This document shows positions 55,313-64,000 of a stretch of 64,000 bases of DNA, one piece after another (positions within the stretch are counted from its first letter, which is position 1; the number at the start of each line of letters is the position of its first letter). A program made the translations under genes and the position numbers. This stretch comes from Nakaseomyces glabratus. Its lineage: Eukaryota > Ascomycota > Saccharomycetes > Saccharomycetales > Saccharomycetaceae. Location of the stretch: assembly GCF_010111755.1 (NCBI RefSeq), contig NC_088954.1, positions 603,901-667,900 on the forward strand, in the 5' to 3' direction. Under the pieces are notes generated by a model. It ran no database searches and was not told where the DNA came from. It saw only the letters and a program-made list of their open reading frames with translations.

Positions 55313-58300
55313 ATGTTTTCCTTTTTTTTGCACTTCTTATTATATTTCGCATGGGTTAGAAGCAGTAATTCTGATTTATTTCATCTGGCAAAGAGAGATA
55401 TAACACCAAATATAGAGAGCCACCCACAAGGGTGTAGTCCGGTAGACACCTCTGGGATAAAACCAGGTTTAAAAATGGATTTATACAGGTTCCCTATTAC
55501 TCCACCTGGTACTGGCTGCTGGAGTTGGGATTGGCTCACAGTTACTCCGGACTTTCCCCGCTCGGGGTATTGGAAATGGCCAAAGATTGCAGAGGTAGAT
55601 GGAGTTGTTGGCCCGTTACATCTCGACAGCGGACATCCAACGTGTGATCCTCTTACAAGTGTATTGCCACATGGATTTAACTATTTGCAATCAATCACAA
55701 CCACAAACTTTACTATGGTTCTTCATGGCTACTTTGTTCCCAAGCAGAGCGGTAAATATACTTTTGAATTCAAAGCTGATGATGCTTTACTACTAAATTT
55801 AGGGGCTGGAAATGCATTCAGTTGCTGTGACTATAATAATTCACAATACAATCAAGGCGAATATCTTGCATATGCAATATGGTCAAAAAATAATCAAACG
55901 GCTACACTGTATCTTGAAAAGGGTATATACTATCCTATAAGAGTGTTCTATCATAATAGATGCTGTGGAGCATACATGGATGTTGTTTATTATTTCAATG
56001 ACTCGCCAATTCCTAATAGAGATTTCTCTGGTCTGCTGTTTTCTATCCCAGACAGTGACAGTTGTGATGCTAATATTGGATTTGATGAGACATGTTCTAG
56101 CATCAATACTATCACTACTTATAGCACACAATATATCACTACTTCCCCTCCAAGTGGTAGTACTCCTATTACCAGTACAATCTACTATATTGCTACACCG
56201 TGCAATAACACACCAGAGAAACCTAGGTGTCCCACTGGTTTTTATGATCCATTTAATAATGTTTGCTATATTCCAGATTATACCACAACATTTACATCTG
56301 ATGGTCACACCATTACAGAGGTGGTATCACATATTACCACAACAGATTCGAACAGAAAAACAGTTACATACACCACAACAATGATGTCCTACGCAGAAAA
56401 CGGTCCAGGACTATATACATCGTTCGGCCCTGCACCTCCAGTGGAGACGCACACGGTTGTTCTTGAGAACAACATGACGAACTACGAGGTTGTATCTTAC
56501 TGGACCACCACCAACGAGGTTGGAGGGTTGATCACGACGAGCAGCACCAGCACGTACAGCGCTCCACCTTTGACAGTGACGGCCACTACTGCGTCTGACT
56601 ACATCGAGTCGGACTGGATCTCGTTCTTCATCACCACGAATGACAAGGGGGACATCATTACTGACAGCACTCTGTTCAATGCTACGCGTGACTACAACTT
56701 GCCTGAAGCCCCACACACTTCGTTCGGCCCTGCACCTCCAGTGGAGACGCACACGGTTGTTCTTGAGAACAACATGACGAACTACGAGGTTGTATCTTAC
56801 TGGACCACCACCAACGAGTTTGGAGGGTTGATCACGACGAGCAGCACCAGCACGTACAGCGCTCCACCTTTGACAGTGACGGCCACTACTGCGTCTGACT
56901 ACATCGAGTCGGACTGGATCTCGTTCTTCATCACCACGAATGACAAGGGGGACATCATTACTGACAGCACTCTGTTCAATGCTACGCGTGACTACAACTT
57001 GCCTGAAGCCCCACACACTTCGTTCGGCCCTGCACCTCCAGTGGAGACGCACACGGTTGTTCTTGAGAACAACATGACGAACTACGAGGTTGTATCTTAC
57101 TGGACCACCACCAACGAGTTTGGAGGGTTGATCACGACGAGCAGCACCAGCACGTACAGCGCTCCACCTTTGACAGTGACGGCCACTACTGCGTCTGACT
57201 ACATCGAGTCGGACTGGATCTCGTTCTTCATCACCACGAATGACAAGGGGGACATCATTACTGACAGCACTCTGTTCAATGCTACGCGTGACTACAACTT
57301 GCCTGAAGCCCCACACACTTCGTTCGGCCCTGCACCTCCAGTGGAGACGCACACGGTTGTTCTTGAGAACAACATGACGAACTACGAGGTTGTATCTTAC
57401 TGGACCACCACCAACGAGTTTGGAGGGTTGATCACGACGAGCAGCACCAGCACGTACAGCGCTCCACCTTTGACAGTGACGGCCACTACTGCGTCTGACT
57501 ACATCGAGTCGGACTGGATCTCGTTCTTCATCACCACGAATGACAAGGGGGACATCATTACTGACAGCACTCTGTTCAATGCTACGCGTGACTACAACTT
57601 GCCTGAAGCCCCACACACTTCGTTCGGCCCTGCACCTCCAGTGGAGACGCACACGGTTGTTCTTGAGAACAACATGACGAACTACGAGGTTGTATCTTAC
57701 TGGACCACCACCAACGAGGTTGGAGGGTTGATCACGACGAGCAGCACCAGCACGTACAGCGCTCCACCTTTGACAGTGACGGCCACTACTGCGTCTGACT
57801 ACATCGAGTCGGACTGGATCTCGTTCTTCATCACCACGAATGACAAGGGGGACATCATTACTGACAGCACTCTGTTCAATGCTACACGTGACTATATAGA
57901 TGCGCAAGCCCCATTTACGTCATCCTCAAGTTATTTGAAATCCGAAGTTGAAGAGTCAGATTACACCACGACGATCGATAATGGCAATGGTGACTTCGAG
58001 ACAGACCTTGTTTCGCACATCACGACCAAGGACTCTGACGGCAAGCCTACCACGATCACCACCACCATCCCATTGAAGCCAAGTGATGCCGGCGAGGCCG
58101 ACTACACCACCACCATTACTTCCGACGGTCACACCATCACAGAAGTAGTCTCCCACATCACCACCACTGATTCAGACGGTAACACTGTTACATACACCAC
58201 CACGATGGCCTCCTTCGATCAGGTAGGCGACGGCGTGTACACGTCTGCTCCACCTTACTCACAGCCACCAGTTGTGACAACCACTGTGACGGAGGACGAC

Positions 58301-59614
58301 GGTAGTAGCAAGACAGTTGTGATCTCTTACTCGCCATCTGAGGGCGAGGATGGGGTTACCCGTACAGGTACGACCACTATCTCCACCATCACTGCTAGCG
58401 GCGAGGCCGACTACACGACGACGATCGACAAGGGCAACGGTGACTTCGAGACAGACCTTGTTTCGCACATCACGACCAAGGACTCTGACGGCAAGCCTAC
58501 CACGATTATAACAACTGTGACTTTAACAGAAGAACCAGATTACACATCTGTGTTTGTTTCTGATGGTCACACGATCACAGCTGTTGTTTCTCATGTCACA
58601 ACGACCAATGATATCGGTCAGACTGTCACCACTACAGTGACTGTTATGTCATATGATCAAGTAGGTGAGGGTGTATTCACTTCGGCTCCTGCTTACTCTC
58701 AGCCTCCAGTCACTACGACAACTGTGAGTGCAAACACTGCTACAGCCACTGTCGTAATTTCGTATTTCCCATCTATTGGCGACGATGGAGTCACCGGGAC
58801 AGGAACAACTACCATTTCCACGGTATCTGTCGGAGGTGAAGCCGACTACACTACAACAGTCGACAGGGGCAATGGCAGTACCGAAACTGATGTCATTTCG
58901 CATATCACCACTACCGACTCCAATGGTAATCCTACAACAATAACCACCACGATCACCAATGCACCTGCACCTTCGAATTCTAAAGCAAATGTGGGGTCTG
59001 ATTACACCACCACTGTGGTTTCTAACGGTCACACAATAGTTTCTAAAGTGACCCAAACCGTAGGTGGCCAGAGTCATGGAAACACTGTTTCAAGTGCAGC
59101 ACCAGTCACAACTGTATCCGGTGCTAGTTTTAATGCTCCTGGAACAGCAGGTGTAGGTGGTATTGTCAATTCTCAGAAATCTCAGTCACAATATGTGGCT
59201 GGCCAAGGGTCTGGCAACGAAAAACCAACACAAGCTGCTGGCACAGCCGGTGGTAGTGGCTCTGGGTCAGTTCACCAATCGGCAGGCAATATTGTACCAT
59301 CTGGATCTCCATCTGTTCAGAGTGCAAAGGGTACTGCGTCTCCAGTCAGTGGTATTCATAGTAGCCAAACACCACACTCTGTACCTTCCCAAGCCCAACA
59401 ACAAGGACAAGGACAAGCACAAGCACCATCATCACTTCAACAGGCTGCCACGACTGTTCTATTACCATCTGGTTCCTCTGTTAACAACATCGGCAGTGGA
59501 TTCAACAGCACGCAAACAGCTTCTGTCCTACAGGGTAAGGGTGCTTCGATTAAAGTCACTTCAATTAGTATTTTATTCTCCATTATTACAGTAATAGTTG
59601 TCGGTATGATCTAA
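55313..59614 (+). CDS. PA14-domain GPI-anchored adhesin (EPA/PWP type)
   Basis: Large cell-wall adhesin, 1433 residues. A signal peptide covers about 1-18 (MFSFFLHFLLYFAWVRSS). A PA14 lectin-like domain covers about 55-265, with paired cysteines (CSPV, GCWSW, TCDPL, FSCCDY, RCCGAY) and the Asp-Asp pair D156-D157 in FEFKADDALLLN that serves calcium and sugar binding in Epa proteins. A Ser/Thr-rich stalk begins near 275. It contains five 100-residue repeats (about 370-860), then YTTT-type and VVSHITTT-type units, then a Ser/Gly/Gln-rich spacer. The C-terminus has a GPI signal (SISILFSIITVIVVGMI). Such genes mediate host-cell and surface adherence in C. glabrata and are typically subtelomeric and subject to silencing. 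I cannot assign a specific EPA or PWP name. The lectin part is AT-rich, while the repeats are GC-rich. Confidence 0.92.
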   Translation: MFSFFLHFLLYFAWVRSSNSDLFHLAKRDITPNIESHPQGCSPVDTSGIKPGLKMDLYRFPITPPGTGCWSWDWLTVTPDFPRSGYWKWPKIAEVDGVVGPLHLDSGHPTCDPLTSVLPHGFNYLQSITTTNFTMVLHGYFVPKQSGKYTFEFKADDALLLNLGAGNAFSCCDYNNSQYNQGEYLAYAIWSKNNQTATLYLEKGIYYPIRVFYHNRCCGAYMDVVYYFNDSPIPNRDFSGLLFSIPDSDSCDANIGFDETCSSINTITTYSTQYITTSPPSGSTPITSTIYYIATPCNNTPEKPRCPTGFYDPFNNVCYIPDYTTTFTSDGHTITEVVSHITTTDSNRKTVTYTTTMMSYAENGPGLYTSFGPAPPVETHTVVLENNMTNYEVVSYWTTTNEVGGLITTSSTSTYSAPPLTVTATTASDYIESDWISFFITTNDKGDIITDSTLFNATRDYNLPEAPHTSFGPAPPVETHTVVLENNMTNYEVVSYWTTTNEFGGLITTSSTSTYSAPPLTVTATTASDYIESDWISFFITTNDKGDIITDSTLFNATRDYNLPEAPHTSFGPAPPVETHTVVLENNMTNYEVVSYWTTTNEFGGLITTSSTSTYSAPPLTVTATTASDYIESDWISFFITTNDKGDIITDSTLFNATRDYNLPEAPHTSFGPAPPVETHTVVLENNMTNYEVVSYWTTTNEFGGLITTSSTSTYSAPPLTVTATTASDYIESDWISFFITTNDKGDIITDSTLFNATRDYNLPEAPHTSFGPAPPVETHTVVLENNMTNYEVVSYWTTTNEVGGLITTSSTSTYSAPPLTVTATTASDYIESDWISFFITTNDKGDIITDSTLFNATRDYIDAQAPFTSSSSYLKSEVEESDYTTTIDNGNGDFETDLVSHITTKDSDGKPTTITTTIPLKPSDAGEADYTTTITSDGHTITEVVSHITTTDSDGNTVTYTTTMASFDQVGDGVYTSAPPYSQPPVVTTTVTEDDGSSKTVVISYSPSEGEDGVTRTGTTTISTITASGEADYTTTIDKGNGDFETDLVSHITTKDSDGKPTTIITTVTLTEEPDYTSVFVSDGHTITAVVSHVTTTNDIGQTVTTTVTVMSYDQVGEGVFTSAPAYSQPPVTTTTVSANTATATVVISYFPSIGDDGVTGTGTTTISTVSVGGEADYTTTVDRGNGSTETDVISHITTTDSNGNPTTITTTITNAPAPSNSKANVGSDYTTTVVSNGHTIVSKVTQTVGGQSHGNTVSSAAPVTTVSGASFNAPGTAGVGGIVNSQKSQSQYVAGQGSGNEKPTQAAGTAGGSGSGSVHQSAGNIVPSGSPSVQSAKGTASPVSGIHSSQTPHSVPSQAQQQGQGQAQAPSSLQQAATTVLLPSGSSVNNIGSGFNSTQTASVLQGKGASIKVTSISILFSIITVIVVGMI
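56420..57919 (+). repeat. Five in-frame 300-bp tandem repeats in the adhesin
   Basis: Copies start at 56420, 56720, 57020, 57320 and 57620, exactly 300 bp apart; the fifth diverges after about 57892. They are almost identical at base level. One base differs, NEVGG in copies 1 and 5 versus NEFGG in copies 2-4 (GTT versus TTT), plus a synonymous change near the end of copy 5. Each encodes 100 residues beginning SFGPAPPVETHTVVLENN with three N-glycosylation-type sequons. Confidence 0.97.
57989..58506 (+). repeat. Second internal duplication in the adhesin stalk
   Basis: A segment of about 68 bp encoding GDFETDLVSHITTKDSDGKP is identical at 57989-58056 and 58439-58506, an offset of 450 bp. Flanking YTTT/VVSHITTT units are similar but diverged. 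Confidence 0.85.
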
Positions 59615-60069: not shown

Positions 60070-60992
60070 TGCGAAAAACGCGAGATGTGATAATGCACGG
60101 TGGTAGTCATCTGATAAGTTAAGTTACCCTGTTCAACAATCTGCTTTAGTTGTTTGACGAAAAATATCGTGACCAATCGAAGTTACCCAGCCACCATCTC
60201 CACTACAGTGCATCATACGATGTATGTTCAGATGACCTTTGATATATCGATGAAGGAGTACTGACTTTCTCACTAACATCTAGGGAAGGTTTCACAGGGT
60301 TGGCAATTAGGTTGAAGGGAGGTGTTGGAAGAGTTTTGTTAGAGTGCGCACTTCAGCACCCAAACATGAATCTCAAAATTTGTGATCTTCAGTTGTTTAA
60401 ACATATATGAATGTCGGAATAGAAATAGTAAATATTAGTTACGGTACATGATTTTACCAGTCAAAACTTATTGGTGAGTTTTTACTGATGATATTGCTTT
60501 TTATGTGCGTAATAGCTTGTATTGTAAATCCATATTTGGAGCTGTTGCGTAAACTAAACTGAAATAATTTAAAATTTTGTTATAAATACCTGAAAGAATA
60601 TAGTGCTGGACATTTCAAGATCACGTTACTTAATTGACGAAATTTACACTTGAACACAGAATCGTACAGCACCTGCTAAAAGATAAACAGAAAGGGTTGT
60701 TTATTCTTATTTACAAGCAACATTGATCGAGTATGTATCTAATATGTGCCTCATACATGCAGCTATTCTTTTATTTACCATTTTCTCCTACAAAAAAAGC
60801 CCTGTCTGAGATGGTGGAATCACAGTAGCATGTCTCTGTTCTGAAATGCTATTGTTTTGACAGTGGGCCAAGCTCAGTCCTGCAAGTTCAGATATCTAAG
60901 TTGCGAAAAACGCGAGACCTTGCGTTCTACGAGACAGTCGACAAAGCAATTTGATTTACCCAGCCTGGCTGAGAGTTGCGAAAAACGCGAGA
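60070..60992 (+). repeat. Three copies of TGCGAAAAACGCGAGA
   Basis: The identical 16-mer lies at 60070-60085, 60902-60917 and 60977-60992, all in the same orientation. The first and third are followed by TGT or TGTTGTG. It joins a GCGAAAA core (similar to SBF sites) to an ACGCGA core (similar to MBF sites). The role is unknown. Confidence 0.85.
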
Positions 60993-61630
60993 TGTTGTGT
61001 TCAACGATGCGTTGTTGAAGTACAAGAATCCACTCTTCCCTAGAACAACAGTTCTTCCTGAAATGTTGCAGTTCATCTGGTTGAATCTGAACTGACCAAT
61101 ATTCATTGATCGGATTGATGGTGGGAGTTAGACATACAGGGTTTCCATTGTGAGATGAATTAAAACTATGTATGTATCAGGATTTTAGTGTACTACTGTA
61201 ATCTTGTAAGAGTGGAAATCTTTGAAGTACTCAAGACTTCTTATACTGTACTACATCATTGATTGAATACCATGCAGGAGGATGAAATGAACAATCCAGT
61301 CTATTTTATGAAGTTTTCTTGATTACCATATATGCCTTGATCACTTGTCACCAGTATTTACTTTATCAACATTTACTTCACAATGATCATGAGATGAAGT
61401 TGTTATCATGATGTAGTTATAATGACCTTGTAGGATTCCCAAATGTATTCCTGAAACAATGAGTTCCTCCACAACACAACACAACACATATCAATGCAAC
61501 ATCATGTGTGATTTATAAATGCTTATGAATATGGTAATATCTGTGCAGTACTTTTACCAGACTGTTGCGTTTCTGTGAAGAGCATTTTTGTTCGACATAA
61601 AACATCTTTCAAGAACAGATTTTCATTTTT

Positions 61631-61754
61631 TTAGGGTTACATAGGGTATGGTAAAGTTCTTAGGGCTGCATTAGGGTTCGTGTTTCATTCATTTGTCTGG
61701 GTAAGTAGGGTTTGCAGTTGTTACAGTTAGGGTTAAATAGGGTTGTGTAGGGTT
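61631..61754 (+). promoter_or_regulatory. Cluster of TTAGGG-type sites (Tbf1-like)
   Basis: TTAGGGTT lies at 61631-61638, 61671-61678 and 61727-61734, and TTAGGGCT at 61660-61667. Further TAGGGT/TAGGGTT cores lie near 61642, 61706, 61738-61744 and 61748-61754. In S. cerevisiae, TTAGGG repeats in subtelomeres bind Tbf1 and act as boundaries against silencing. All sites here face the same way. Confidence 0.7.
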
Positions 61755-62430
61755 CCAATAATATATATTTTGGTAATGAGGAGAGGATTTCTGGTAGTAA
61801 GTCTAAAATGAGCTATCAGAAACAGGTTAACGTGCACCACAATGAGTCCTGAATATCATGTAGATAGATTAAAAAGTTCACTGTACATATTTCATGCCGT
61901 ATATCTACATTCATGAAAAGACATTTGTAGAGTATATGATATGTCCATATATATCTAAGGCTCCACTATAAATGGGATTTAAGATTACTAGTTAATACAA
62001 GATCCAAATGACATATGAAAGAGAATAAGAGCTATAACAATATCAATCTATACCTTTGAATAGATGATTAAATGTCTTTGTAGACTATCATACACTATAA
62101 TATACAAGTATACCAATATGATAATGGTAACTGTTTAGTAACCAATATATGACAACGAATAACAAAATGAATGGTATACAATATATATGTCAACTACATG
62201 ATGAATGATAATTTACAACTACCAAATATAATTCAATGAAAGTGTATTGTTTATAGGTTAGTATGTAAATGGTGTCACATATAAAATCTTTGGGATACCT
62301 GACATTTGTGTGAAGTAACTGTCATATGATCATTGCCAATTACCAATTATTTATTAGAATAATAAATGAAAAACATATAATAACAAATATACATTTATTA
62401 TGGTTCTAAAGCAACCTAAAATATAGGTAA

Positions 62431-63198
62431 TGGAGTGTAGTGTGGTTGGAGTGTGGTGTGGGTGGAGTGTGGTGTGGGTGGAGTGTGGTGTGGGTGGAGT
62501 GTAGCCTGGGTGGAGTGTAGTCTGGGTGGAGTGTAGTCTGGGTGGAGTGTGGTGTGGGTGGAATGTGGTCTGGGTGGAGTGTGGTCTGGGTGGAGTGTGG
62601 TCTGGGTGGAGTGTGGTCTGGGTGGAGTGTAGTCTGGGTGGAGTGTGGTCTGGGTGGAGTGTGGTCTGGGTGGAGTGTGGTCTGGGTGCTGTGGGGTCTG
62701 GGTGCTGTGGGGTCTGGGTGCTGTGTGGTCTGGGTGCTGTGTAGTCTGGGTGCTGTGTAGTCTGGGTGCTGTGTAGTCTGGGTGCTGTGTAGTCTGGGTG
62801 GAGTGTAGTCTGGGTGCTGTGTAGTCTGGGTGGAGTGTAGTCTGGGTGGAGTGTAGTCTGGGTGGAGTGTGGTCTGGGTGGAGTGTGGTCTGGGTGCTGT
62901 GGGGTCTGGGTGCTGTGGGGTCTGGGTGCTGTGGGGTCTGGGTGCTGTGGGGTCTGGGTGGAGTGTGGTCTGGGTGGAGTGTGGTCTGGGTGCTGTGTAG
63001 TCTGGGTGCTGTGTAGTCTGGGTGCTGTGTAGTCTGGGTGCTGTGTAGTCTGGGTGGAGTGTAGTCTGGGTGCTGTGTAGTCTGGGTGGAGTGTAGTCTG
63101 GGTGGAGTGTAGTCTGGGTGGAGTGTAGTCTGGGTGGAGTGTGGTCTGGGTGGAGTGTGGTCTGGGTGGAGTGTGGTCTGGGTGGAGTGTGGTCTGGG
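62431..63198 (+). repeat. Variant 16-bp telomere-like repeats (48 units)
   Basis: Forty-eight units kept in perfect 16-bp register. All but the first few end in GTCTGGG or GTGTGGG. The first half varies: TGGAGTGTAG, TGGAGTGTGG, TGCTGTGTAG and, in patches, the canonical TGCTGTGGGG. The outermost units are the most diverged (TGGAGTGTAGTGTGGT first). A block of eight units is duplicated 256 bp apart (62735-62862 and 62991-63118). Confidence 0.95.
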
Positions 63199-63986
63199 TG
63201 CTGTGGGGTCTGGGTGCTGTGGGGTCTGGGTGCTGTGGGGTCTGGGTGCTGTGGGGTGGGGTGGGGGTCTGGGTGCTGTGGGGTCTGGGTGCTGTGGGGT
63301 CTGGGTGCTGTGGGGTCTGGGTGCTGTGGGGTCTGGGTGCTGTGGGGTCTGGGTGCTGTGGGGTCTGGGTGCTGTGGGGTCTGGGTGCTGTGGGGTCTGG
63401 GTGCTGTGGGGTCTGGGTGCTGTGGGGTCTGGGTGCTGTGGGGTCTGGGTGCTGTGGGGTCTGGGTGCTGTGGGGTCTGGGTGCTGTGGGGTCTGGGTGC
63501 TGTGGGGTCTGGGTGCTGTGGGGTCTGGGTGCTGTGGGGTCTGGGTGCTGTGGGGTCTGGGTGCTGTGGGGTCTGGGTGCTGTGGGGTCTGGGTGCTGTG
63601 GGGTCTGGGTGCTGTGGGGTCTGGGTGCTGTGGGGTCTGGGTGCTGTGGGGTCTGGGTGCTGTGGGGTCTGGGTGCTGTGGGGTCTGGGTGCTGTGGGGT
63701 CTGGGTGCTGTGGGGTCTGGGTGCTGTGGGGTCTGGGTGCTGTGGGGTCTGGGTGCTGTGGGGTCTGGGTGCTGTGGGGTCTGGGTGCTGTGGGGTCTGG
63801 GTGCTGTGGGGTCTGGGTGCTGTGGGGTCTGGGTGCTGTGGGGTCTGGGTGCTGTGGGGTCTGGGTGCTGTGGGGTCTGGGTGCTGTGGGGTCTGGGTGC
63901 TGTGGGGTCTGGGTGCTGTGGGGTCTGGGTGCTGTGGGGTCTGGGTGCTGTGGGGTCTGGGTGCTGTGGGGTCTGGGTGCTGTGGG
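63199..63986 (+). repeat. Telomere, canonical 16-bp repeat
   Basis: Three units of TGCTGTGGGGTCTGGG, then one expanded 27-bp unit with extra GGGGT (63247-63273), then 44 perfect units (63274-63977) and a partial unit ending TGCTGTGGG. The sequence equals the known C. glabrata telomerase product, with the G-rich strand running toward the chromosome end. Confidence 0.96.
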
Positions 63987-64000
63987 TCTATCTCTCTCTT
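63987..64000. other. Non-telomeric 14-base tail
   Basis: After the last telomere unit the sequence reads TCTATCTCTCTCTT. It does not fit the repeat and may be a read-end, adapter or basecalling artefact of the assembly, or the true edge of a further element beyond the window. Confidence 0.5.

Follow-up and report, generated by a model that had tools for sequence, protein, structure and literature searches.

Structure of the right end of contig C4

The window, that is, the whole stretch of 64,000 nucleotides analysed here (contig C4:603901-667900), forms the right end of contig C4 (667,900 bp; C4R hereafter), and belongs to a genome of 12,726,212 bases in 13 contigs with 26 contig ends. The outermost long open reading frame (ORF), with the telomere beyond it, is an adhesin-like gene on the plus strand (55313-59614), a 1433-aa ORF with matches to the Pfam families Hpf1_C, GLEYA and PA14 above cut-off. 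Inside this ORF lies a 300-bp tandem repeat (56420-57894; 4.9 copies, 99% match), to which a stretch near the left end of contig C9 is related at about 80% identity. A subtelomeric element common to other contig ends occupies 60800-62430, where the inner limit is approximate, and a longer part of it, reaching to about 58400, is common to fewer ends. The edge of this element is marked by a degenerate junction unit, or stub (TGGAGTGTAGTGTGGT; 62431-62446, plus strand), with which a variant-repeat zone begins (62431-63198, plus strand). The zone is followed by the canonical telomere, composed of TGCTGTGGGGTCTGGG repeats (63199-63989, plus strand) and including one aberrant 27-mer (63247-63273), and by the 11 last bases of the window, a contig-tip sequence, ATCTCTCTCTT (63990-64000, plus strand), which we take to be probably the start of a PacBio hairpin adapter. 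C/T-rich adapter-like tails are found at 7 of the 26 contig ends, including C4R, so that some contigs probably extend to the true end of a molecule. Both features expected of a C. glabrata telomere, the 16-nt unit and the 19-nt telomerase RNA template, are present and indicate Candida glabrata (Nakaseomyces glabratus), and the C. glabrata telomere motif given in the available part of PMC3847288 is TGCTGTGGGGTCTGGG in another phase and on the other strand.

Parsed in 16-base steps from 62431 to 63198, the C4R zone consists of 48 consecutive units with zero register slips. It had been described in a first-pass annotation as 48 variant 16-mers in unbroken register; the number of units and the register hold, but six of the units are canonical and 42 are variant. 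The canonical units inside the zone lie at 62687-62718 (n=2) and 62895-62958 (n=4), both on the plus strand. With canonical units written as a dot and the variant types coded as C (TGCTGTGTAGTCTGGG), c (TGCTGTGTGGTCTGGG), A (TGGAGTGTAGTCTGGG), G (TGGAGTGTGGTCTGGG), g (TGGAGTGTGGTGTGGG), a (TGGAGTGTAGCCTGGG) and N (TGGAATGTGGTCTGGG), the string past the stub unit reads gggaAAgNGGGAGGG..cCCCCACAAGG....GGCCCCACAAAGGGG in full. The unit types form a chain of steps, from canonical through c, C, A and G to g, in which neighbours differ by 1-2 bases.

An order of eight unit types seen from 62735 had been said to recur from 62991, and the recurrence is exact: the block CCCCACAA (TGCTGTGTAG four times, TGGAGTGTAG, TGCTGTGTAG and TGGAGTGTAG twice) is present at 62735-62862 and again, 256 bp distal to this first copy, at 62991-63118, both times on the plus strand. 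Counted with their flanking bases, the two copies are identical over 148 bp (12 upstream plus 136). The two 256-bp stretches of the zone agree at 240 of 256 positions; among the other in-register 256-bp window pairs in the zone (n=153), however, the best agree at 241 of 256, so that base identity alone carries little weight and the signal is the order of types. Similar runs and canonical units do follow both blocks, as first described, but past the shared eight units the run lengths differ, with no further A, two G and four canonical units after the first copy versus an extra A, four G and three canonical units after the second. The units preceding the two blocks differ as well (..c versus GG). 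The fraction of units that match at lags of 13 to 19 units is 0.29, 0.29, 0.21, 0.34, 0.32, 0.37 and 0.31, respectively, and falls to 0 at lags of 8-9 units; the matches form a broad hump at 13-20 units, and 256 bp is therefore a spacing and not a precise period. What remains of the proposed 256-bp higher-order repeat is the recurrence of eight units in two unequal blocks, with no sharp period and moderately beyond chance.

For the comparison with chance, a repeat had to span 8 or more units and include 3 or more switches of type. It was equalled in 8 of 20,000 free shuffles, in 29 of 20,000 shuffles that keep runs and in 156 of 20,000 that keep neighbour counts, as well as in 1,126 of 20,000 Markov simulations based on the whole zone and 1,595 of 20,000 based on a model trained without the second copy. 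The C4R repeat thus exceeds the shuffles, modestly so under the neighbour-keeping and Markov controls, and the Markov matches at 6-8% imply that a run-making process alone can occasionally imitate it. Only C4R, among the zones scanned, repeats more than 5 mixed units within the same end. With some 19 zones taken into account, the repeat is suggestive, not overwhelming by itself, and other ends give stronger evidence.

Exchange between contig ends

A telomere is present at all 26 contig ends, and at 19 of them variant units, in zones of 48 to 787 bp, sit between subtelomeric DNA and the canonical terminal array. The seven ends without a variant zone are C3L, C3R, C5R, C6L, C8R, C12R and C13R. 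The DNA on the inner side of the C4R zone had initially been taken for unique, which proved wrong: it is the subtelomeric element, common to 21 of the 26 ends, with mutual matches of at least 500 bp at 82-100% identity in the last 1-1.5 kb. Of the remaining five ends, C3L pairs only with C3R and C12R only with C13R, and C5R has no match; C3L, C3R and C5R are without both the element and a variant zone. Compared over up to 10 kb, the C4R flank is matched for about 1.65 kb by 12 of 13 other ends and to about 4 kb, towards the adhesin-like gene, by 8 of the 13, with identical stretches of 295 bp in C8L, 242 bp in C2R and 195 bp in C6L and C8R. The best partner of many ends switches between 200-bp steps, often at 95-100% identity, and this mosaic testifies directly, at the level of sequence, to exchange between ends near the telomere. 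The degenerate stub follows TAATGGA, in one form or another, at 10 of the 26 ends, and in C6L and C8R it is followed directly by canonical repeats.

In some cases, units and flanks are shared together. The flanks of C4L, C12L and C7R are identical, over 2,345 bp for C4L and C12L and over all 1,366 bp fetched for C7R, and their zones all start with ggAggA, one further unit and GG. C12L and C7R agree in this seventh unit, which in C4L is a 17-mer; after GG, C4L becomes canonical at once, C12L has one more G, and C7R has one canonical unit and one G. The same flank and the same first units, combined with differing outer units, indicate that the inner units came with the flank and that the outer edge changed. 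In C9R and C11L, the final 167 bp of flank are exactly the same (overall, 151 of 1,414 columns differ), and both ends have arrays of type C, with 12 units (one altered) in C9R and 22 in C11L. C8L and C4L have one difference in the last 147 bp of flank, yet their unit strings differ. Among the ends of this one genome, string and flank are therefore linked in C4L/C12L/C7R and in C9R/C11L, and not in C8L versus C4L. Shared unit strings between ends, which had been named as a sign of recombination, do occur at some of the 26 ends, and they do so together with the flanks. The description of the zone as a fossil record of telomere recombination is justified in part, since the outermost variant units differ among C4L, C12L and C7R despite their identical flanks, and C8L has another string than C4L.

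Unit order alone is a weaker guide at these ends. The ggAggA string of C4L and C7R is equalled in 72 of 200 neighbour-keeping shuffles. In C8L, a unit with a one-base deletion, found at no other of the 26 ends, is present in two places between the same neighbours and so suggests an independent block duplication; judged by unit order alone, 26 of 500 free shuffles and 116 of 500 neighbour-keeping ones equal this repeat. Since shuffles often match both the C8L repeat and the ggAggA string, it is the flank that carries the proof there. Higher-order repeats of several units are seen in C4R and C8L, and are modest against neighbour-keeping controls. A six-unit string common to C4R and C7L was also considered as evidence of exchange and was set aside, as 16 of 200 free and 44 of 200 neighbour-keeping shuffles match it.

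In our view, the variant units are very probably old ones that have been spread by subtelomeric recombination and amplified locally. In this model, telomerase would rewrite the outer tract only, and the inner tract would act as a minisatellite of 16-bp units. During repair of one end from another, by break-induced replication or conversion, old variant units would move along with the subtelomeric element; individual ends would subsequently duplicate or lose them in blocks, for which unequal sister-telomere exchange, telomere self-invasion and replication slippage are conceivable routes. The two CCCCACAA blocks would then represent one such duplication, followed by small changes in run length.

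The first reading of the zone had combined block duplication with exchange between telomeres. The flanks fit exchange, but the CCCCACAA string is absent from all other contig ends (26 ends searched), and the duplication looks internal. Its absence elsewhere favours a duplication within the C4R telomere over import, though the units before the two blocks differ, and we regard a within-telomere origin of the second block as rather likely. Import, in which the second block would have been copied from another telomere by break-induced replication, is possible but doubtful: it agrees with the exchange between ends seen in the flanks, with the differing units before the two blocks, which are unexpected from a simple tandem duplication, and with the rare unit TGGAATGTGGTCTGGG held by both C4R (1 copy) and C7L (2 copies), and it is opposed by the lack of CCCCACAA at any end from which the block could have come among the 26.

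Composition of the variant zones

Variant types occur in runs, and the type that forms the run varies from end to end, the longest being A x16 in C2L, C x22 in C11L, G x21 in C9L and G x16 in C10R. The number of identical variant neighbours is 177, versus maxima of 143 in 2,000 within-end shuffles and 70 in 2,000 pooled shuffles; these counts leave out poly-G errors, and C3R and C8R, which have no real zone, are still flagged in them. The identical-neighbour count, above every shuffle, indicates that the variant zones have undergone local homogenisation into runs, and the initial statement that types recur in blocks and not at random is well founded, with types that differ by end. Four types, each of them present at as many as 12 ends, account for 260 of the 316 non-canonical units, a total that includes at least 4 indel errors in C3R and C8R. 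T stands at position 8 in 299 of 301 variant 16-mers. The four dominant types and the common T suggest that the variants are one family that spread, and not the product of many independent decays. Across the 26 ends, most substitutions lie in the unit half CTGTGGGG, and the half TCTGGGTG is nearly untouched save for one position.

It is very unlikely that an error of assembly or polishing created the unit order or count. Evident consensus errors, in the form of poly-G runs and 15-mers, are present in the canonical tracts of several ends, adapter-like tails have been left in contigs, and C12R and C13R are identical over 2,500 fetched bases, all of which would suit an artefact. Against it stand the 48 units of C4R without a slip and the zones of the same style at 18 other ends; in addition, the two blocks differ in run lengths and are therefore not one segment pasted twice. 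C12R and C13R, identical in their last 2,500 bases and with only 446 bp of canonical telomere, are possibly one sequence placed twice. Both are presumably rDNA ends; a scan of the final 2.5 kb of these two variant-free ends gave no rRNA. In Arabidopsis, rDNA ends have few variants, according to the available part of PMC11406999.

Likewise very unlikely is decay in place, by which canonical units abandoned by telomerase would have mutated point by point, with an accidental order as the result. Divergence from canonical is somewhat greater inward (Spearman -0.21, for 386 non-independent units that include some poly-G errors), and free decay is named as the usual source of new variants in section 9 of PMC11406999, as far as the available text goes. 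Decay is, however, difficult to reconcile with four types of several changes each that make up most non-canonical units at up to 12 ends, with runs that exceed every shuffle, and with canonical units that sit between units differing from them at three places.

Telomerase RNA template

A half-template pattern search of the genome led to a 19-nt template match at contig C9:422598-422616, with the RNA on the minus strand, which encodes CTGTGGGGTCTGGGTGCTG. It is located within about 2.5 kb without an ORF of at least 80 aa and adjoins an snR161 gene (Rfam match); S. cerevisiae TLC1 has snR161 and PDX3 as neighbours. From template, length and context, we infer that this locus is the telomerase RNA gene. 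No Rfam telomerase RNA model matched at the template locus, and the partial ORF beside it gave no Pfam family. Its 19 nt fit the relative value of 1.19 given for template length in the available part of PMC8211666. The C9 template specifies nothing but the canonical unit and so would not produce the variants, which agrees with the earlier argument that telomerase copying one template would not give such a pattern.

Other searches for a template were negative within their scope. Exact-boundary patterns (the 19-mer of PMC8211666 and one other phase) gave no template match in the genome, and no canonical 20-mer with up to 1 mismatch was found beyond the fetched ends, a count that also misses the 19-nt C9 template. 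The variant 24-mer TGGAGTGTRGTCTGGGTGGAGTGT is absent outside the fetched ends, in a search that would miss a shorter second template. Two half-template patterns also gave candidates at C12:953745, C11:417351 and C13:160471, which were rejected because their match to the telomere unit is only 12-13 nt each; the candidate at C12:953745 is additionally inside an open reading frame and has no Rfam match. At C9:422593-422616, the template continues with UACCC past its 3' end. A telomere ending in GGGTGCTG could pair over 8 bases with this extension, with one G-U wobble, and copying of that U would yield GGGTACTG, which is absent from all 26 telomere tracts.

It is also very unlikely that another or older RNA template wrote the variants and that the zone records a change of template: the step chain of 1-2 base differences and the RNA paralogues reported in other yeasts, three of them in Z. 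sapae (PMC8211666, available part), would fit, whereas the template found here is canonical, TGGAGTGTRGTCTGGGTGGAGTGT was not seen beyond the fetched ends, close relatives are reported with repeats identical to those of C. glabrata (PMC3847288, available part), and strings such as CCCCACAA, mixed and recurring, would not be expected from a template.

Telomere-length control

The canonical tract has a mean length of 846 bp (SD 121, 24 ends). Total tract length rises by 0.76 (95% interval 0.54-0.98) per base of variant zone across 24 ends, on a scale where 0 means that variant units are fully counted and 1 that they are not counted. The regression leaves out C12R and C13R, sets C3R, C8R and C6L to zero variant length, and counts C4R from 62463, with its first two units left out. 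With the two longest zones omitted, the slope becomes 0.75 +- 0.36, and on the 6 contig ends recognised in this regression as adapter-tailed it is 1.05 (n=6). As a tentative suggestion, variant units might be largely ignored by telomere-length control. One caveat is that the canonical part falls somewhat with variant length (p 0.038; Spearman p 0.10). Another is that the same slope would be expected if assembly had halted at a fixed depth within the canonical tract; the slope of 1.05 at the six adapter-tailed ends (n=6) argues against this. A third is that the half-unit TCTGGGTG is the whole telomere unit of Naumovozyma castellii (PMC12408736, available part), and, with most substitutions outside it, protein sites may be largely intact. 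If variant units indeed go uncounted, the natural telomeres of one strain would provide a dose series for which repeats the length machinery reads, and the same data make such variant-blind control testable.

Relation to known systems

A 16-bp unit allows a telomere to be read unit by unit, and one yeast genome thereby offers 19 records of telomere-proximal copying and loss. Where strings are shared along with flanks, exchange between ends can be recognised and breakpoints can be placed. C. glabrata adhesin genes adjoin chromosome ends, and a 2021 study by Xu et al. is said, by its title, to deal with subtelomere exchange in this species. Telomerase-negative C. glabrata survivors are described in the available part of a review (PMC8305976) as having telomeres of heterogeneous length, possibly via recombination. 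The variants may already be in print; among the matches listed for literature on the variant sequence in this species and on degenerate and higher-order telomere repeats, the titles and abstract starts contained no account of these C. glabrata variants.

Variant repeats within telomeres are also described in human cells, where telomerase and recombination are discussed as sources (PMC3919612, available part), but the units there are hexamers. A closer parallel among yeasts is telomerase-negative N. castellii, in which higher-order repeats at the ends are made by recombination and a subtelomeric element lies next to the telomere; there, however, a 325-bp block with the subtelomeric element spreads in identical form to all ends (PMC12408736, as far as available). 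The blocks in C. glabrata, in contrast, consist of telomere units only and are end-specific, a canonical telomerase template is present, and no block that recurs with its subtelomeric element at all ends was found across the 26 ends. The strongest likeness is to Arabidopsis, where, in the available text of PMC11406999, variants between subtelomere and canonical telomere, runs of single units, end-specific patterns, higher-order repeats with and without changes and interspersed canonical units are described, and slippage and unequal crossing over are proposed as the cause. The Arabidopsis data comprise 74 accessions and units of about 7 bp (PMC11406999, same part), whereas here one yeast genome was analysed, with a 16-bp unit and a mosaic flank element shared between ends. 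The C4R zone thus resembles structures already described at plant chromosome ends, here in a yeast with a canonical telomerase template.
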